Shown here one piece after another: positions 3,496-24,717 of a stretch of 32,925 nucleotides of DNA. The notes under the pieces were generated by a model. The model was not told where the DNA came from. It searched no databases and saw nothing but the letters and a program-made list of their open reading frames with translations. The DNA lies in the NCBI GenBank assembly GCA_001773775.1, contig MEXR01000009.1, positions 1-32,925 of the forward strand, read 5' to 3'. Made by a program: the position numbers and the translations under genes. Within the stretch, counting starts at the first letter, position 1; each line of letters starts with the position of its first letter. Source of the DNA: Candidatus Amesbacteria bacterium RIFOXYB1_FULL_44_23. Lineage in GTDB: Bacteria > Patescibacteriota > Microgenomatia > CAZETR01 > Amesbacteraceae.

Positions 3496-5256
3496 ATGAT
3501 TTCCGCTAACGATATTCGTCTCAAATATTTAAATTTTTATAAGGCTCGCAATCACGCCGTAATTCCCTCGGCTCCACTAGTTCCTGAAAATGACCCCACG
3601 GTTTTGTATACAACCGCCGGCATGCACCCATTAATTCCCTACCTACTAGGCCAGCCTCATCCCGCCGGTAATCGATTAGTAAATGTTCAAAAATGTGTCC
3701 GTACAAACGATATTGACGAAGTGGGCGACGCATTTCATCACACCTTTTTTGAAATGCTTGGCCACTGGTCGCTGGGCGACTATTACAAAAAGGAGGCTCT
3801 AGCTTTCACTTTCGAATTACTAACTCAGGTCTTTGAATTCGATCCCCAAAGCCTTTCCGTTACTTGCTTCGCTGGAGATTTGGATGCCCCCAAAGACGAA
3901 GAGTCCTCTTCAATCTGGCAATCCCTCGGGATCCCTAAAGACAGGATTTATTTTTTACCCAAAGAAGATAATTGGTGGGGTCCGGCAGGTGTCACTGGTC
4001 CCTGTGGACCCGACTCAGAAGTATTTGTGGATCTAACTAAAAAATCATGCGGACCCAATTGTCAGCCTGGTTGCTCTTGTGGACGTTTCTGTGAGGTCGG
4101 AAACGACGTTTTTATGCAATACAACAAAACTTCATCGGGAAAATATGAATTACTACCCAAACCTAATGTTGATAACGGTACCGGACTTGAGCGCAATCTG
4201 GCGTTAATTAATGGGTTTAATGACAATTATTTGACCGATTTATGGCAACCTGCAGTCAAATTACTTGAGAATATTACAAACAGAGAATACTCAGACAACA
4301 AAAGAGAGTTTCGCATCGTTGTTGACCACCTCAGGGCGGCCATTTTTATTATCGCTGATGGAGTCTTTCCTTCAAACAAAGAAAGAGGGTATATTTTACG
4401 TCGCCTTATTCGTCGAGCAGTTCTAAAACTTCATTTATTTGTACCAGATCCGCTTCTGCCCAGCCTAGAAGTTGCAAATGTTTTTATTGCTCAAATGTCT
4501 CCTGTTTATCCGGAGCTCAATTCCCAGAAAGACTTAATCAAAAAGACGCTCGCCGACGAAGTTGGTAAATTCTCAAAGACCTTAGATAGAGGTTTAAGGG
4601 AGTTCAATAAAATCAAAAAACTCGACGGTAAAGCGGCCTTTGATCTTTTTCAGACATTTGGTTTTCCTTGGGAGATAACCATTGAAATGGCAAAACAGAA
4701 TAAACAAACTCTCAATTATCAAGAATTCGAGACCGAATTTAAAAGACATCAGCAATTGTCACGCACTGCCTCGGTCGGCATGTTCAAGGGCGGATTGCAG
4801 GACCAATCAGAAATTACCACCAAATATCACACCGCCACCCACCTACTTCACAAAGCGCTGCGTATTGTCTTAGGTGACCATGTTCAACAAAAAGGCAGCA
4901 ACATAACTTCAGAAAGGTTACGTTTTGATTTTTCTCACTCAGATAAGCTAACTTCATTACAAACGCAAAAAGTCGAAGAAATTGTCAATCAAAAAATCAT
5001 TGACAACCTAACGGTCAGCAGAGCTGAGCAGTCAAAGTCCCAAGCCCTGTCCCAAGGCGCATTGGCCTTTTTTGTTGAAAAATATCCCGACCAGGTTTCC
5101 GTTTATACGATTGGACCAGAAGAAAACTGGTTTAGTAAAGAATTATGCGGAGGCCCCCATGTTAATTCGACAGGGGAGATTGGTGGGATTAAGATAATCA
5201 AAGAGGAGTCAGCTGGCGCCGGTATTCGTCGTATCTACGCGCAACTCACAAAATGA
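3496..5256 (+). CDS. alaS: Alanyl-tRNA synthetase, short form
   Basis: Charges tRNA-Ala with alanine. The class II catalytic core is clear at the N-terminus (NDPTVLYTTAGM, then HHTFFEMLGHWSLGDYYKKE). The editing domain is present: zinc-binding HTATH with His445 and His449, and CGGPH with Cys551 and His555. At 586 residues it is much shorter than the roughly 875 of E. coli AlaRS because the protein stops right after the editing domain; the C-Ala oligomerisation/tRNA-binding domain is missing. A Cys-rich insert (C185, C189, C193, C195, C199) follows the GPCGPDSEVF motif and looks like an extra metal site. The start is the ATG behind a perfect TATAAT. The stop overlaps the next gene's start (ATGA). 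Assignment is certain. Confidence 0.96.
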   Translation: MISANDIRLKYLNFYKARNHAVIPSAPLVPENDPTVLYTTAGMHPLIPYLLGQPHPAGNRLVNVQKCVRTNDIDEVGDAFHHTFFEMLGHWSLGDYYKKEALAFTFELLTQVFEFDPQSLSVTCFAGDLDAPKDEESSSIWQSLGIPKDRIYFLPKEDNWWGPAGVTGPCGPDSEVFVDLTKKSCGPNCQPGCSCGRFCEVGNDVFMQYNKTSSGKYELLPKPNVDNGTGLERNLALINGFNDNYLTDLWQPAVKLLENITNREYSDNKREFRIVVDHLRAAIFIIADGVFPSNKERGYILRRLIRRAVLKLHLFVPDPLLPSLEVANVFIAQMSPVYPELNSQKDLIKKTLADEVGKFSKTLDRGLREFNKIKKLDGKAAFDLFQTFGFPWEITIEMAKQNKQTLNYQEFETEFKRHQQLSRTASVGMFKGGLQDQSEITTKYHTATHLLHKALRIVLGDHVQQKGSNITSERLRFDFSHSDKLTSLQTQKVEEIVNQKIIDNLTVSRAEQSKSQALSQGALAFFVEKYPDQVSVYTIGPEENWFSKELCGGPHVNSTGEIGGIKIIKEESAGAGIRRIYAQLTK

Positions 5257-7385
5257 ACCTGCCATTTTTACAACGTCAACAATCGTCTCAAACACGACAA
5301 CGGGAATATTTATTCGCTCTGGATTTGGCATACGATCACGTTGCAAGTGCCATTTGGACTGTAGCCAACGGCAAAACCCAGGTGATTTCCTTGGGGAAAA
5401 TTGCCCTTTGGCAAGAATCAACAGCAGGAAGTTTATTAGAGGCATGTGATCAAACACTGTCAGATTCAACATTTCAAGTTGATCGAAGTGGTAGGGTCCA
5501 GCCCGACAAGATAATTCTCGGCTTACCAAATGATTGGATTGTGGACGAAAAAATAAATCCCGACAAATTGAAAATCCTAAAACAAGTAACCAAAGAATTA
5601 TCACTTACTGCGGTTGGATTTGTTGTAACTCCTCAGGCTATAGTCAGATATCTGTATCACACAGAGGGAGTTCCCCCAACAGCCATAATTGTTGGAATTA
5701 GTAAATCCCTTCTCGAAGTAACTCTTTCTCGTTTGGGTAAGATCCAGTCAACTCAGATTGTAAAGCGGAGTTCTAACTTAGTTTCTGATTTGACAGAGGG
5801 TGTTTCCCGTTTTTTACCACAGGACATGCTACCATCACGCATTCTACTTTATAACTCTGGAAGCTCGTTGGAGGAAACAAAACAGATTCTCTTGGGACAC
5901 CCATGGCAGGCTCCTCAAACCAAATTGCCTTTTTTGCACTTTCCAAAAATCGAAATTCTACCTCCCGATTTTCCCGTCAAAGCAATCAGTTTATCGGGGG
6001 GAAGCGAAGTGGCCCAAGCAATAGGTTTACTACCTGCACAGCCTACCACATCAAATCAAATCGAAGATGTAGACGACGACACCACCGATCTGGGTTTTTT
6101 TCGAAATATTGATATAGCCAAACAGGAACCTGTTCTGGTCGAAGAACCTATCGAAGAAAAATTAATTTCATCTCCAAAGTCTCATTTGCCGTCCTTCTCA
6201 AGGCTCAAATTTAACTTTCACCTACCCGCTTTCAAAATTCAACCCCCCAAGTTTATGGGTTTAATAGCATCAGTCATGGCCTTGGCATTGTGCGGAATTT
6301 ATTTTTACTGGTACTTTCCTACAGCAGAAATTCAAATTACACTTGCACCCAAGGAAATTAACACTCAGTTTGAGGCCGAAGCGGATGCTGGGGTTTCTAA
6401 ACTGGATTTAGATGCCAAAATTTTACCAGCAACTTATATCGAGACTGAAGCTTCTGGTCAAAAATCAAGGCCCTCTACTGGTAGCAAAATTATTGGCGAT
6501 AAAGCCACTGGGGAGGCTTTAATATTAAACGGAACCTCGTCCCCTCGAAGTTTTCCCGCAGGAACGGTCATTACCTCTCCATCAGGTCTAAAATTTGTAC
6601 TGGATGCATCCGTTGAAGTTGCTTCTGCTTCAGGTACTGCCGACCCTAATTCTTACCAACCTGGACGGTCTAAGGTGGGGATTACAGCTGCAGCTATTGG
6701 TAGCGAATACAATCTCTCAGCAGGGACACAGTTTCGAGTTGGTTCGTTTTCTTTTTTAGATTTTGTTGCCAAAAATGAGGCTGCTCTGTCTGGGGGCTCC
6801 AGTCGATTAGTACAAGTTGTATCAGATAAAGACATGTCCTTGTTAAAAGCCGAATTGACCAGCCTTGTAAAAGAAGAAGTTGTCACTAAGCTGAAAAACC
6901 AAGTTTCAGAAAATAAAAACATTATTGAGTCATCCATAAGTCTTTCAACTCTTTTGGAGAAATTTAGCCATGACCAAGGCGAAGTCGTTGATAGTATCTC
7001 TCTTGACCTGACACTCAAGGCGGCAGCGTTAAGTTTTTCAACGCAGGATATCGATCAACTTGTAACCCAGAGCTTGACTTCACTTATCCCGTCTGGTTTT
7101 CAACAAGACAAAGAAACCAATAGAGCTATTCAGGTAAAAAGTCTAAAAGGACAAAAAGCTCAAATTTCGGTCCAAGTCGCCTCACGACTCATTCCGATTT
7201 TAAATACAGACCAAATAAATACCGACATATCCGGTAAATCTCAATCATATGCAAAAGACTACATTGGCAAGTTGCCAAACGTCTCAGGTTCAAAGATCCA
7301 GATAAAATCCATTCTGCCGGAATCCTTGGTAGGCTTGCCACATATTTCTAAAAATATCACCATAACCACAAATGTTTCCGAATGA
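5253..7385 (+). CDS. PilM/FtsA-like actin fold fused by a membrane helix to a baseplate J-like domain
   Basis: A 710-residue protein with three parts. Residues about 15-260 look like an actin-fold domain of the PilM/FtsA type: a phosphate-1-like strand (EYLFALDLAYDHVASAIW), a phosphate-2-like strand (AIIVGISKSLLEV) and an adenosine-like motif (SLSGGSEVAQAIGL). The usual DxG glycines and aspartates are eroded, so nucleotide binding is doubtful. An acidic linker leads to one transmembrane helix at about 333-353. The outside part holds a baseplate J/gp47-like region at about 405-495 (GDKATGEALILNG, FPAGTVITSPSGLKF, YNLSAGTQFRVG), then a helical/beta tail. It overlaps alaS before it and the sortase after it by ATGA, implying coupled translation. 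In phage and contractile systems the J domain builds baseplates; here a membrane-anchored envelope scaffold is my inference. No tube, sheath or spike gene is present. Confidence 0.75.
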   Translation: MNLPFLQRQQSSQTRQREYLFALDLAYDHVASAIWTVANGKTQVISLGKIALWQESTAGSLLEACDQTLSDSTFQVDRSGRVQPDKIILGLPNDWIVDEKINPDKLKILKQVTKELSLTAVGFVVTPQAIVRYLYHTEGVPPTAIIVGISKSLLEVTLSRLGKIQSTQIVKRSSNLVSDLTEGVSRFLPQDMLPSRILLYNSGSSLEETKQILLGHPWQAPQTKLPFLHFPKIEILPPDFPVKAISLSGGSEVAQAIGLLPAQPTTSNQIEDVDDDTTDLGFFRNIDIAKQEPVLVEEPIEEKLISSPKSHLPSFSRLKFNFHLPAFKIQPPKFMGLIASVMALALCGIYFYWYFPTAEIQITLAPKEINTQFEAEADAGVSKLDLDAKILPATYIETEASGQKSRPSTGSKIIGDKATGEALILNGTSSPRSFPAGTVITSPSGLKFVLDASVEVASASGTADPNSYQPGRSKVGITAAAIGSEYNLSAGTQFRVGSFSFLDFVAKNEAALSGGSSRLVQVVSDKDMSLLKAELTSLVKEEVVTKLKNQVSENKNIIESSISLSTLLEKFSHDQGEVVDSISLDLTLKAAALSFSTQDIDQLVTQSLTSLIPSGFQQDKETNRAIQVKSLKGQKAQISVQVASRLIPILNTDQINTDISGKSQSYAKDYIGKLPNVSGSKIQIKSILPESLVGLPHISKNITITTNVSE

Positions 7386-8053
7386 AAATTAGCCCGCCTC
7401 TTTTAAAACGCTCCTCTTTGGCACTGATATTGACTGGTTTATCAATTATTCTCATAACATTAACTCCTATAATTATTTCAATTTCTAAAAATGCCTTAAA
7501 TCCACGTATCACAGATCCCACCACCATTTCACCTTTCTCTTCATCGGTTATGATTGTATCTTCGCAAAATTCAGACGATTTAACCCAAGCCTCTAATTGG
7601 TTTATCCCCTCAAATGACCTAACGTCCCCCGCAACAAACTCCGTTAAGTACTTCAATCTCTCTTTCCCCCGACTTAAATTGACTAACGTTACAGTTGAGA
7701 TTAATGGATCAGACCTGAAGAAAAACGCTATTCATTATCCCGGAACTGCGTTTCCGGGGGATTATGGCAATTCAGTAATATTTGGCCACTCTGCCTTACC
7801 TCAACTTTATAAACAAGGTAGTCCGTTAACCATCTTTAATCCCATAATTAAGGCCCAAATAGGAGATGTTATTCAGGTTAACTACGATGATCTAGAGTAT
7901 CGTTATCAGATAACAGGAATTACTGAAACTACACCAGCACAAATAGAGGTTTTGGCCCAAAATTACGATCGAAGACAAATGACACTTGTTACATGCACTC
8001 CCTTAGGCACCTACTGGAAACGATTTGTTATCCGTGCTGAAATCATCAATTAG
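7382..8053 (+). CDS. Sortase family transpeptidase
   Basis: A membrane-anchored cysteine transpeptidase that joins proteins to surface acceptors. It has an N-terminal signal anchor (residues about 12-33) and the sortase barrel with all catalytic residues: His136 in FGHSALP, Cys205 in LVTCTPLGT and an Arg shortly after (Arg214, less likely Arg218). The TLVTCTP-type motif is closer to class D/E-like sortases than to class A. Its start overlaps the end of the PilM-like/baseplate J-like gene (ATGA), so the two are likely made together and may work on the same surface structure. No LPXTG-like sorting signal is visible in this window, so the substrate is unknown. Length of 223 residues is normal. 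Confidence 0.9.
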   Translation: MKISPPLLKRSSLALILTGLSIILITLTPIIISISKNALNPRITDPTTISPFSSSVMIVSSQNSDDLTQASNWFIPSNDLTSPATNSVKYFNLSFPRLKLTNVTVEINGSDLKKNAIHYPGTAFPGDYGNSVIFGHSALPQLYKQGSPLTIFNPIIKAQIGDVIQVNYDDLEYRYQITGITETTPAQIEVLAQNYDRRQMTLVTCTPLGTYWKRFVIRAEIIN

Positions 8054-8172: not shown

Positions 8173-8550
8173 ATGAATTACATTGGCATCGATTACGGCC
8201 TCAAATCAATCGGTTTATCTATCGCTACCGGGCCTCTTGCCGAACCACTTGCCACTATCTCCAAAGATCAAATCTTCAATATTCTGCCAACACTTTGTTC
8301 AACTCACAATGTCAAAGACTTAGTGATAGGTTTTCCAGATGGGAACATCCGCCCCCTTGTTGAGAAATTTTACCAACAATTAGAAGGACTTGGCTACATT
8401 TGTCATTTGGCCGATGAAACTCTATCTTCTCGTGACGCGCTGGCATCTTTGAGCCACAAAAAAGCCCGGAAACGCAAGATTTTAGAACACGCCGTTGCTG
8501 CCACCATTATTCTTCAAAATTGGCTTGACTCCCACTCCGGCACATTGTAA
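8173..8550 (+). CDS. ruvX: Putative pre-16S rRNA nuclease / Holliday junction resolvase, YqgF (RuvX) family
   Basis: RNase H-fold nuclease of the YqgF family, implicated in 16S rRNA 5'-end maturation. Signs: GIDYGLKSIGLSIA with the first catalytic Asp (Asp7), the strand DLVIGFPDG, the ADETLSSRDA motif and the final helix HAVAATIILQNWL. In most family members that helix begins with an Asp (D-x-x-A-A-x-x-I-L-Q); here the aligned residue is His106, preceded by Glu105. Thermus RuvC is recalled to use a His at a comparable metal site, so activity is not excluded. Length of 125 residues is slightly short. It follows a TATAAT 8 nt upstream and heads a ruvX, zinc ribbon and mltG run; the ruvX-mltG neighbourhood is common in bacteria. 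Confidence 0.88.
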   Translation: MNYIGIDYGLKSIGLSIATGPLAEPLATISKDQIFNILPTLCSTHNVKDLVIGFPDGNIRPLVEKFYQQLEGLGYICHLADETLSSRDALASLSHKKARKRKILEHAVAATIILQNWLDSHSGTL

Positions 8551-8760: not shown

Positions 8761-9726
8761 TTGTTTGTGAAAATTCTACTCGCTATCGTATCCCTTTCTG
8801 TTTTTTTGGCTGCCGTTGTAGTTACTTTGTATTTTTTTGCCCTTACCCCTGCATCCATTTCTAGTAAAGCAAGTGTCAATTTTTTGATAAATCGCGGCGA
8901 GTCAGCAGCTTCAATACTTTCACGCCTTGAAAGCCAAAAGCTTATCCGCTCCTCAATAGTTACGAGGGTATATCTAAAAATTAACAATCTAGAAAAAAAA
9001 TTAGTTCCTGGAGAATTTTCATTATCCGGCAATAATTCAACACAGGAAATAATAAAAGGTCTAATGGTTGGCCCTAAAGACATATGGGTTACCTTTCCAG
9101 AAGGCTGGCGTCGTGAACAAATAGGCGCTCGACTTTTGGGGATAAATCCAAACTTTAATCTTGATAATTTTATTAAAGATACAGCCACTATTGAAGGTCA
9201 ACTCTTTCCTGATTCATACCTAGTCCCCAAAGACATAACCTCGGATCAGGCAATTCGAATGCTTACTATTAATTTTAGTAACAAAGCTAAACTAAATCCC
9301 CAAAATGCTCAAGATCGGAATTTACTAACGATTGCCTCGTTAATAGAGAGAGAAGGACAGAACACTCATGACAGGTCACTAATTTCTTCTGTTATCGAAA
9401 ACCGTCTCAATATTGGCATGGCATTACAAGTGGATGCCAGTGTTCAGTACGCCACTGATTCATATAATTGTCAAAAAAACATCGTGGGCTGCGAATGGTG
9501 GAAACCTGTGTTAGATACAAAATTCCCCTCTCTTTTTAATACCTATATTAATCCAGGGCTTCCTCCGCACCCGATCTGTAATCCCGGCTTGTCTTCCATC
9601 GAATCTGCAAAAAATCCCAACAAATCGGATTTTTTGTACTACATTACCGGAAATGATGGTGTTACCAGATTCGCCAAAAACCTGCAAGAGCACCAACTGA
9701 ATATTGACAAATATCTAAAGCCCTGA
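8761..9726 (+). CDS. mltG: Endolytic murein transglycosylase MltG (YceG-like)
   Basis: Cuts nascent peptidoglycan glycan strands at the outer face of the membrane. Residues about 5-25 are a signal anchor. A LysM-like/YceG N-terminal part follows, with the phrases VPGEFSLSG and WVTFPEGWRREQIG, and then the catalytic segment TIASLIEREG with the expected active-site Glu196. The later motif LQVDASVQYA and the NPGLPPHPICNPG segment are family hallmarks. Length of 321 is normal. The start is either TTG 8761 or, equally possible, GTG 8767 (a TTTAAT lies just before it); there is no ATG nearby. The 3' end carries the probable rpoB promoter. Confidence 0.94.
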   Translation: MFVKILLAIVSLSVFLAAVVVTLYFFALTPASISSKASVNFLINRGESAASILSRLESQKLIRSSIVTRVYLKINNLEKKLVPGEFSLSGNNSTQEIIKGLMVGPKDIWVTFPEGWRREQIGARLLGINPNFNLDNFIKDTATIEGQLFPDSYLVPKDITSDQAIRMLTINFSNKAKLNPQNAQDRNLLTIASLIEREGQNTHDRSLISSVIENRLNIGMALQVDASVQYATDSYNCQKNIVGCEWWKPVLDTKFPSLFNTYINPGLPPHPICNPGLSSIESAKNPNKSDFLYYITGNDGVTRFAKNLQEHQLNIDKYLKP

Positions 9727-21390: not shown

Positions 21391-22659
21391 TTATACCCCA
21401 GCTTTTAATTCCTTTAGTTCTTTCTTTAACTCCGTCATTACCAGCTCCCTCCCGACCATAAGTTTATTCATTCTTTCTAGCTCCATTAATTTCTCCTCCA
21501 AATCTTTTTTGGCTTGTTCCAGCTCTACCGTTCTTTCTTCAACTTTTTTTTCTAATTCTACGTAGTATCCCGATAGTTTTGTCGCCATGTCGTTAAACGT
21601 CTTAGCCAAATCTCCGATTTCGTCATGAGTCAGAATATCAATTTTAGTATCCCAATGGCCTTTACTGATGGCCACTGACGCATCCCTTAATTTAATTAGG
21701 GGATTAGTGATTCGTTTTGACAAATAAACACTTGCAATTGTAACCACCCCTAAACTTGCAATCGCAATCACTACAGAAGCTTTTATTATATCTTTTAGAG
21801 GTTCATACGCTTCGTGTATTGGTAACTCCACTACTACTGCCCAATCGGGGATTTCCAGCGCCACATGGCTGGTCACTACTTTTAAATTTCCAATCCCATT
21901 AGAAGTCACACTCCCTTCAGTAGTATGTTCTCCATTCACAAACCTTGCTACTTCATGCAAATTGCTCAAGTTTTCTCCGGCCAAAACTCGGCTAATGTCG
22001 CCATACGCTAGTAAATTTCCTTTTTTATCCACTACATAAGCCAGTCCATTTTTTCCAATTTTTATATTCCCCACCAAATCCCACATGAATTTCAAATTTA
22101 CCTCAGCTGCCAGTGAACCCAGGCTTTCACCAAAAGTATTTTGTATCGGAACTAAAATTGCCACCAGCGGTTCGCTGGTATTATTATCAATATAAACCGG
22201 ACTGATATATATGTTCCCTTTTTGGACATAGGGTAAAAAATCGTAATTAATCGCCTTTTCCAATTGACTTGGTTCAAAACTAGACAGCCTAGAAGTCTTC
22301 ATTTGCACCCCACCTACCATGTCAAAAATTAACAATTGTCGAAAAGAAATTTCTTTTCCCAGTAGTTTTTCCAAGTTCAATTTTAGTTGTTCAGAAGTGG
22401 CCGAAGATAAATTACTAAATTTTGAACTTGTTTCCAAAATTACTATTTTGTTTTGAACAAAATTCTTTACCACATTGGCTGCATCTTGAGCTACAATTTG
22501 TTGTTGAGAAGATATAAAATTTTGCTGCATCCGGTATTGGAAATATATTTCGAAGCTGATAATAGTCAACAAAATGCCTGTACATAAAATTAAAAACGTT
22601 GCAGCTAACGTAAACACCAAGCTACTGCTAGTTTTTTTATACCTGTCGGCAGACATCAT
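21391..22659 (-). CDS. Cache-HAMP membrane receptor without an output domain
   Basis: A 422-residue receptor. Transmembrane helix 1 is at about 13-38 and an extracytoplasmic double-Cache-like sensor at about 40-285 (NGLAYVVDKKGNLLAYGD and DWAVVVELPIHEAYEPL are typical). Helix 2 is at about 291-313 and a HAMP domain at about 314-365 (SKRITNPLIKLRDASVAISK, HDEIGDLAKTFNDMATKL). A coiled coil then runs to the end (KVEERTVELEQAKKDLEEK, then MNKLMVGRELVMTELKKELK). The protein stops where a histidine kinase, GGDEF or chemotaxis domain would normally begin. The NKLMVGREL-type coiled coil often precedes kinase domains in other bacteria. It lies 23 nt after two substrate-binding-protein genes, so these are its likely partners. 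The ATG is preceded by a weak GAAGGA. Confidence 0.85.
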   Translation of the reverse strand: MMSADRYKKTSSSLVFTLAATFLILCTGILLTIISFEIYFQYRMQQNFISSQQQIVAQDAANVVKNFVQNKIVILETSSKFSNLSSATSEQLKLNLEKLLGKEISFRQLLIFDMVGGVQMKTSRLSSFEPSQLEKAINYDFLPYVQKGNIYISPVYIDNNTSEPLVAILVPIQNTFGESLGSLAAEVNLKFMWDLVGNIKIGKNGLAYVVDKKGNLLAYGDISRVLAGENLSNLHEVARFVNGEHTTEGSVTSNGIGNLKVVTSHVALEIPDWAVVVELPIHEAYEPLKDIIKASVVIAIASLGVVTIASVYLSKRITNPLIKLRDASVAISKGHWDTKIDILTHDEIGDLAKTFNDMATKLSGYYVELEKKVEERTVELEQAKKDLEEKLMELERMNKLMVGRELVMTELKKELKELKAGV

Positions 22660-22682
22660 CTCTACGTGTCCTTCTAAACCTG

Positions 22683-23702
22683 TTAGCGAATAACTTTATT
22701 TGCCTTATTCAGCAAGCTTTCAGAGAGATTTATCCCCAATTCTGAAGCCATTTTGGCATTAAGAATCAGATACGTTTCTGGAGAAACCACCGGAATAATT
22801 CCGGCTGACGTCCCTTGTAAAATTTTGTTCGCCAATCGCGCCGCTAGTACTCCAATCTCTGAGGTGTCCACAGTTACTGCAAAAACTGTTCCATAATCAT
22901 CTAAAGTTACAGACGAACCACCTACTGGAATTTTTTTCACCCGGGTGTATTTTGCTATCGCGGCAAAGGCTTCCTTGGTAGTAGAAAGAGATTCAGGGAT
23001 AAACAAAACTGCTCCAAAGCCCAAATCCTTGTTTTTTGCCCGATTTGCTAATTCCGCCTGCAAAGCGACTAAATTTTCAGAAGGAAACTCAATCAAAGTC
23101 AGACCCAAGGACTTAGCTGCTGGACGTACCACATCCAGTTCTGCTGGCACCGATGGATAACCTTTTTGGTAAGGCAACCAGATCTGTTTTACCTGAGGCA
23201 CAACTTCGTGTAATACCTCCAGCCGCCTTATCGCAACGTCAGTATTCGGATACCGAACTCCCGTGATATTTCCCCCTGGAGCTCGTATGCTGTTAACCAG
23301 ATTATTTCCTTCGGTAAAGGCATTTGCAAAAACCACCGGTATGTCAGTTCCCTTTGTGGCCTCTTTTGCTTCCAAAGCTGCCTCAGTGTTATACGCCAAA
23401 ATTAAATCCACTTTTTCATCAACGAACTTCTTGAGTATTAGCTTTTCCTTATCCGGCTCAAAGTTGGTCTTTTGTAAATCATAAGTTATGTTTTTTCCAT
23501 CTACGTATCCCAAACCAGTCATCTCCTGTATAAAACTGTCGGCAATGCCGGAAAACAGATTCAGCCCTGACAAAATCCCTACTCGGTACGCCCCTTTTTT
23601 GTAATTTGATCTTTTTTCTCCTTTTGTCAAAATATACCCTACTCCTATCACTATTCCCAAAATCACAATTAATAAAATAACGGCCTTCTTGTTCATAATC
23701 AC
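22683..23702 (-). CDS. ABC-type substrate-binding protein, PF04392 type, copy 2
   Basis: A 339-residue periplasmic-binding-protein fold of the ABC_sub_bind (TrpX/DUF534-like) family. An N-terminal hydrophobic anchor (residues about 7-25) has no lipobox Cys, so the protein is probably membrane-tethered and not a lipoprotein. Two lobes follow; conserved phrases are YRVGILSGLNLFSG, GYVDGKNITYDLQ, IPVVFANAF, NITGVRYPNTD and the C-terminal INLSESLL. It is a close paralogue of the gene just upstream. The start is GTG 23702, overlapping the previous stop (GTGA), or ATG 23696. No permease or ATPase of an uptake system is nearby, which points to ligand sensing with the receptor downstream. Confidence 0.85.
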   Translation of the reverse strand: MIMNKKAVILLIVILGIVIGVGYILTKGEKRSNYKKGAYRVGILSGLNLFSGIADSFIQEMTGLGYVDGKNITYDLQKTNFEPDKEKLILKKFVDEKVDLILAYNTEAALEAKEATKGTDIPVVFANAFTEGNNLVNSIRAPGGNITGVRYPNTDVAIRRLEVLHEVVPQVKQIWLPYQKGYPSVPAELDVVRPAAKSLGLTLIEFPSENLVALQAELANRAKNKDLGFGAVLFIPESLSTTKEAFAAIAKYTRVKKIPVGGSSVTLDDYGTVFAVTVDTSEIGVLAARLANKILQGTSAGIIPVVSPETYLILNAKMASELGINLSESLLNKANKVIR

Positions 23703-24717
23703 TTTACTATTTCAATTGATCTACTTAACAACCCCTCGCCCACAGTCAACCCCAACTTCTTTGTCAGTTTATAATTTATCCGCAAGTCATTATCTGCCGT
23801 TACTACCGGAATAGTACCAGCCGAGATCCCCTTTAGCACCTTATTAGCAATTGGCGCCGCCAGTTTTCCGAACTTCAAATTATCCGGATGAAAACCCACA
23901 ATCGGTCCACTAGCCTCTTTCAAAATCAAAGCGCTGCTTATAGGCAGCCTGTATTTGTCGGCAAACTTGTATATTACCTCGTTCACTTCCGGAGTGACCG
24001 AAAACGGCTCTACTAATTCCAATATCGCATCTATCCCCGGATCTTTTGCAGCCATCCTCCCATCCAAATACTCTTTCACTTCGGCCGCATTTTCAAACGG
24101 CATTATTGTTAAAGTGATACCCATTTTTCTTGCTGCTAAATTCAACTCCGCAATTTGCGATGGAACAGTCGGGTAATTTTTTAAATAGGTAGCCCACACT
24201 CTCTTCACTTTTGGCGCAATCTCATGCAAAAGCTCCAATCGACCCACCGCACTTTCCGTAGTTGGGTACCGGACTCCAGTAATGTTATTACCTGGAGTCC
24301 TGACATTCTGTACCAAGCCAGTCCCCTCGATAAACGCTAGTCCAAAAACTACCGGCACACCAGAACCTTCAGCCACCTTTTTAGTTTCTATGGAGATTTC
24401 AGTACCAATCGGGAACAACAAATCCACTTTCTCTTCAATCATCTTTTGTACCGCTTTTTCATTCCCGATTGGTTGAGATGCCGAAAACACATCGTATGTC
24501 ACGTTCCTACCTTCTACATAGCCCAACTCTCTCATTGCCTCTTTAAAAGAATCCTGTACGTTTGAAAAAAAGGGATCGAAATCAAAACACCAATTTTGTA
24601 AGTTTTTTTGGATTGTGCTTCTTGTTTTTCTTTTGCCAACCAAACCCATCCTCCAACTACCACGGCCAACACTACCACCAAAACAACCACCACAGCTCGA
24701 AATTTTTTATTAATCAC
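23699..24717 (-). CDS. ABC-type substrate-binding protein, PF04392 type, copy 1, with apparent -1 frameshift
   Basis: Same family and layout as copy 2, but the reading frame is split. From GTG 24717 the first frame gives the anchor and first strand (INKKFRAVVVVLVVV, then YKIGVLISIPFF) and would stop at 24532. The rest of the protein (NVQDSFKEAMRELGYVEG to the end) is in the -1 frame. The change falls at a run of seven T on the minus strand (+ 24565-24571). Joining the frames there gives a protein of 339 residues, exactly the length of copy 2. Explanations: an assembly or sequencing indel, a true inactivating deletion, or slippage at the run. It lies about 70 nt after tRNA-Pro. Confidence 0.75.
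24565..24571 (-). other. Slippery-type T7 run at the frame change
   Basis: In the upstream frame the run reads as T-TTT-TTT, the X-XXY-YYZ arrangement of a -1 slip site, followed by CAA in frame 0 or TCA after slipping. No strong downstream stem or pseudoknot is obvious by eye. It marks the frame change and does not prove programmed shifting. Confidence 0.4.

Follow-up and report, generated by a model that had tools for sequence, protein, structure and literature searches.

A fused pseudo-actin, transmembrane and baseplate J-like envelope protein linked to a sortase in CPR bacteria

What does a bacterial cell do with a protein that carries an actin-like fold inside, a single membrane helix and a phage baseplate-like domain outside, and what ties its gene to that of a sortase? 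This question is raised by one locus in a 32,925-nucleotide stretch of DNA (hereafter, the window). We call the fused protein of the window X, and we use XN for the separate actin-like protein and XC for the membrane-plus-J partner that correspond to its two halves in other lineages. No description of X was found in the open-licence PubMed Central literature, and the main text of a Cell 2023 Tn-seq paper (PMC10633639) does not name it. The domains, topology, fusion, erosion, conservation, gene linkage and sortase clade presented below were established by computation. X is a fusion descended from a two-protein system found across CPR and Chloroflexota. The reading that we favour, with a probability of about 0.5, is that this system is a unit in the style of FtsA-FtsN or PilM-PilN, and that its fused descendant is a fixed scaffold that positions the sortase in the window's class.

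All the genes of the locus lie on the forward (+) strand. X (5253..7385; 710 aa) is preceded by alaS (3496..5256) and followed by the sortase gene (7382..8053; 223 aa), by ruvX (8173..8550) and by mltG (8761..9726), which codes for an endolytic transglycosylase; the last two were assigned with Pfam. The open reading frame of X overlaps that of alaS by an ATGA at 5253-5256 and that of the sortase by another ATGA at 7382-7385, the latter confirming the preliminary description of the locus. Elsewhere in the window (21391-24649, - strand), two tandem genes for ABC substrate-binding-like proteins are followed by one for a Cache-HAMP sensor-like membrane protein devoid of a kinase domain, as judged by eye. 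The window's genome also encodes a second MltG besides that of the window (G000:C43:350-1198, L312; 4.8e-69).

The inside half of X starts with an actin-fold domain (residues 1-265; 5253..6047, +), as indicated by its AlphaFold2 model (pLDDT 89.6, pTM 0.84), by Foldseek and by alignment with intact separate homologues. Its best matches in the PDB are PilM (1.8e-9, TM 0.50), FtsA and PPX/GppA. The alignment revealed that the ATP-site residues and the subdomains 1C and 2B are missing from fused X, with the median length of the 1C region falling from 106 residues in separate XN to 21, and that of the 2B region from 70 to 23. In contrast, the 1C and 2B lobes and the three motifs of the ATP site are mostly retained in the separate XN proteins. 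The actin half of the fusion is a pseudo-ATPase that derives from a distinct actin-like family, and the missing motifs suggest that ATP binding was lost. The PilM/FtsA-like fold and its erosion are as initially proposed, but X itself is neither a PilM nor an FtsA protein. It has no NCBIfam match and is devoid of the ATP-site motifs and 1C subdomain that separate XN largely keeps, and the PilM family PF11104 of Pfam gives no match in it. X as a replacement for the FtsA or the PilM of its class was ruled out, as both are encoded elsewhere in the genomes: canonical FtsA in 28 of the 28 genomes examined and canonical PilM in nearly all, including the window's own genome (G000:C46).

The actin fold is followed, still in the cytoplasm, by the conserved linker motif (D)LGFxxxxDI (residues 279-290; 6087..6122, +), in which G281 and F282 are nearly invariant among fused X proteins. 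An unfused XC (L076) carries a similar motif, LGFVEGQDV. The linker motif might be a docking site for a partner.

X has only one hydrophobic segment (residues 332-355; 6246..6317, +), which is helical in the AlphaFold2 model. Positive charge is higher before than after this helix in 46 of 54 homologues, which places the N terminus and the actin domain inside the cell, as previously supposed. On the outside, a Baseplate_J/GlxA-type beta barrel (residues 417-516; 6501..6800, +) precedes a C-terminal alpha/beta ectodomain (residues 525-710; 6825..7382, +) that is apparent in the AlphaFold2 model (pLDDT 95.1 for the outside half), conserved phylum-wide and assigned to no known family. X taken alone gives weak matches to the GlxA barrel in Pfam (0.0015) and to a baseplate wedge family in PHROGs (4.4e-4). 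The signal becomes firm with the 54 homologues, of which Pfam Baseplate_J matches 48 (best 2.3e-8), the PHROG baseplate wedge 34 (best 6.9e-12) and the GlxA barrel family PF21110 nine. The outer-half profile also detects CD1371, a baseplate protein of diffocin, at 3e-5. Foldseek returned the GlxA barrel as the top match, together with gp47/J baseplate proteins; GspL and PilN are absent from the 50 matches listed for the outer half. The J-like stretch is limited to some 100 residues (417-516), with a whole-domain TM of ~0.2. The predicted structures of the two halves thus match the PilM/FtsA and gp47/J folds initially put forward, the outer resemblance amounting to one barrel.

A J-type barrel recognised by both profile and fold could indicate that X is a domesticated part of a phage or contractile-injection baseplate that still works in such a machine. 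This idea is largely refuted by gene context, and we consider it extremely improbable. Genes for a sheath, tube, gp25 or spike were not seen in the vicinity, and tail sheath, tube and baseplate genes were found neither among the ORFs of the window, inspected by eye, where the preliminary description had also seen no other phage-tail gene, nor in the neighbourhoods mapped by homology. X is membrane-anchored, encoded in single copy and often found in an alaS-ruvX-mltG neighbourhood in both CPR and Chloroflexota, and its best fold match, the GlxA barrel, is not a phage protein. X as a phage remnant was ruled out as well, by context, conservation and age. The proposal of a cellular envelope protein is borne out for X, which is membrane-anchored and found in 56 of the 59 relatives from its class, with one locus per genome.

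This conservation is far beyond chance, and it extends to gene order. The order ftsK-rodZ-orf-alaS-X-sortase-ruvX-mltG-rpoB recurs across the loci of the class, and ftsK and rodZ are found in the window too. According to profile matches and simple ORF calls, on which all these adjacency counts rest, the sortase gene is directly downstream of X in 47 of 55 class loci, alaS is upstream in 46, and mltG and ruvX are downstream in 45 and 38, respectively. Among the 49 pairs measured on one strand, 45 have the sortase gene starting at most 100 nt from X, and the gap is often -4 or -1. Across CPR, the linkage between the outer half and a sortase holds in the window's class, but in other CPR classes the outer half occurs without a linked sortase.

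Are X and the sortase then mere neighbours in a conserved housekeeping cluster, the sortase acting in anchoring generally and being functionally independent of X? Many unrelated genes keep a conserved order as well, and these genomes code for several other sortases. However, three loci (L063, L068 and L085) keep the X-sortase pair while alaS, ruvX and mltG were not found nearby, the two genes overlap or abut in most families, and the X-linked sortases form a distinct clade from which the sampled sortases of three genomes with no detected X (G014, G017 and G038) are excluded. We therefore regard mere proximity as unlikely; the coupling to the sortase, already noted in the preliminary description, is both conserved and clade-specific.

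The sortase of the window belongs to the Pfam Sortase family (5.8e-22, above the PF04203 cut-off) and scores above none of the class C, D, E or F cut-offs. Its catalytic residues are His136 (7787..7789, +) and Arg214 (8021..8023, +), both kept in 51 of 51 linked sortases, and Cys205 (7994..7996, +), kept in 50 of 51, with the remaining row gapped. Sortases were detected in 58 of the 59 genomes of the class; the exception, G051, has a fused X and a completeness of 87%. With the phylum being Patescibacteria (CPR), this frequency makes Microgenomatia, where sortases are near-ubiquitous (PMC6744442), the probable class. In a tree that took in two of the four sortases of genome G030, a single clade (98/87) holds every one of the 51 linked sortases and one further sequence. 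The latter comes from a genome (G039) whose sortase is not beside X, and the sampled sortases of G014, G017 and G038 fall outside. The preliminary description had further proposed that the sortase processes the outer part of X or its partners. Processing of X itself is unsupported, as its C-terminal 60 residues contain no LPxT[GAN] motif, and a motif scan of ~8 kb around X in the 55 class loci yielded no candidate substrate.

Outside the window's class, the protein takes another form. In the phylum as a whole, a profile of the membrane helix plus J-like region finds a match in 279 of 287 genomes, or in 255 of 259 when the better ones are counted, but beyond the class the frames are mostly shorter (~480-700 aa). 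The actin-like half is there encoded by a separate gene (product of ~375-425 aa), located directly upstream on the same strand. This XN-XC arrangement was found in 16 of 20 loci and in 66 of 80 further genomes. In 12 of these 80, XC occurs without a strong XN, and hence XN is not always needed. XC in these lineages has its own small cytoplasmic domain of ~85 residues, for which no PDB relative was found with an E value better than 0.3. Its ectodomain is conserved throughout the phylum and mostly single-copy. The XC proteins of L307 and L308 (family f41) are very divergent (5e-24 and 1.5e-15) and are easily scored as absent. Two genomes of the window's own class, G030 and G050, have a separate, partly eroded XN next to XC, with eroded ATP motifs, without 2B but with 1C, and no sortase beside X. 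These intermediates suggest that erosion came first, followed by fusion with loss of 1C and recruitment of the sortase.

By profile, XN is nearest to FtsA, with matches to TIGR01174 (ftsA) of 1e-25 to 1e-34 and 89-120 bits, yet these remain below the family cut-off of 175.85. In a tree of actin homologues, in which the PilM sequence of G015 was disregarded as a wrongly picked frame with an end branch >5, XN forms a clade of its own (98/93), apart from FtsA (100/99), PilM and MreB, three families that CPR genomes encode as well. We tentatively propose that XN may be a further bacterial actin family beside these three, devoted to a single bitopic partner with a phage-baseplate-like ectodomain and probably predating the split between Chloroflexota and CPR. 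Within a single class of CPR, decay would have turned it into a pseudo-actin, fused to its partner and holding a sortase in place on a wall scaffold.

The Chloroflexota genomes, 42 in number, were reached via the sequence of a published 16S probe, and the XC profile matches 32 of them. At two loci (L293 and L295) the gene order is alaS-XC-ruvX-mltG, and in several Ktedonobacteria XN is directly upstream of XC. Ktedonobacteria, including G345 (L181) and G348 (L186), also have multiplied XC-type J proteins, with 7-16 matches per genome. Vertical inheritance of XC from a common ancestor would be the simplest reading.

This distribution bears on the earlier proposal that X and the sortase form a class-specific host-attachment apparatus. 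X has the topology of a surface protein and is near-universal in the class, and sortases are near-ubiquitous in Microgenomates (PMC6744442). However, other CPR classes have the outer half just as universally but with no sortase linked to it, and it is also present in Chloroflexota not known to live as epibionts. In addition, a conserved, mostly single-copy ectodomain is unlike a fast-evolving adhesin. The unit is much older and more widespread than an attachment device of CPR would be, and we consider the proposal improbable. The near-universality of the outer half in the phylum and its presence in most of the Chloroflexota sampled argue for a general envelope role.

Another explanation links X to type IV pili, which are widespread in CPR. 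X has the GspL-like architecture of an actin fold, one transmembrane helix and an extracytoplasmic domain in one chain, and its best fold match is PilM. It could thus be an accessory of the pilus platform, similar to GspL or to a fused PilM-PilN. The J-like part would then replace PilQ, which is missing from CPR (PMC6744442), as a collar where the pilus crosses the wall. Nevertheless, the sampled genomes encode canonical PilM proteins at other loci, the tree keeps XN and PilM apart, and no pilus genes were recognised near X in the classes examined. Furthermore, of the nine genomes without detected X, eight keep a PilC-family gene of the type IV pilus. We therefore consider a pilus function of X to be rather improbable.

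In six of the same nine genomes (G014, G017, G038, G068, G211 and G295, some complete or nearly so) mltG was not detected, while it is present in five of five X-bearing control genomes. This co-loss is confounded by the linkage between X and mltG, the incompleteness of some genomes, possible divergence of X and the small number of controls. At L122 and L123, genes that we read as mreB-mreC-mreD-PBP2 adjoin the unit, the last three being named from size and order. A wall role is favoured by these neighbours, by ftsK-rodZ in the window and by the presence of mltG next to the unit in both CPR and Chloroflexota; the alaS and ruvX neighbours give no functional hint. We infer that the unit may have a role related to peptidoglycan or the division site.

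How might such a unit work? The bitopic proteins FtsN and PilN use their cytoplasmic tails to bind FtsA and PilM, respectively, at the IA-IC cleft (PMC7613929). XN and XC have the same make-up as the FtsA-FtsN and PilM-PilN pairs, and hence we propose that they form an actin-homologue-coupled wall scaffold. XN would be the FtsA/PilM-like actin homologue in the cytoplasm, docking on the cytoplasmic side of bitopic XC, and this docking would link the state of the cytoplasm to a scaffold on the wall side that is probably oligomeric. The XN and XC genes were fused in the window's class. With partner and actin in one chain, the cleft-forming 1C lobe should become dispensable, and it is indeed gone in X. 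Devoid of ATP binding and of the 1C and 2B lobes, the actin domain would be left as a fixed cytoplasmic anchor, and the dedicated sortase, recruited beside X, would presumably attach surface proteins where the scaffold sits.

Few of the genomes sampled from the very large CPR radiation lack a member of the X family, which looks like a core part of the envelope. How these cells divide is poorly understood, as is the biology of their surface. Should XN be an actin family in its own right, the short list of cytoskeletal proteins of bacteria would become longer, and CPR cells would offer a link from cytoplasm to wall that can be tested. The fusion devoid of ATP motifs represents a natural experiment on the purpose of the actin part.

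X and its partners can be compared with several known systems. The CPR sortase family fam000526 is likewise near-ubiquitous in Microgenomates; a link to a J-like protein is not mentioned in that study as searched here (Meheust et al. 2019, PMC6744442), whereas our analysis ties one sortase clade to X. With the Baseplate J/gp47/gp6 proteins of phage tails and contractile injection systems, X shares one beta barrel of ~100 residues, but it is anchored in the membrane, extracellular in its J-like part and endowed with other flanking domains, and there are no contractile-machine genes nearby. GlxA, the galactose-oxidase homologue of Streptomyces lividans, has the same barrel; in contrast, X is membrane-anchored and has no oxidase domain. 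The PilM-PilN and GspL systems of type IV pili and type II secretion resemble X in combining an actin fold, either docked or, as in GspL, part of one chain, with a bitopic membrane protein. X differs from them by its J-type barrel outside, its location away from pilus genes and the canonical PilM encoded elsewhere. Finally, the FtsA-FtsN pair of the divisome also couples a cytoplasmic protein with a 1C-bearing actin fold to a bitopic membrane protein, as XN-XC appears to do. XN nevertheless falls short of the FtsA family cut-off, has a clade of its own and occurs alongside canonical FtsA, and the ectodomain of XC is J-like; in the window, the two parts are fused and the actin part has no ATP motifs.
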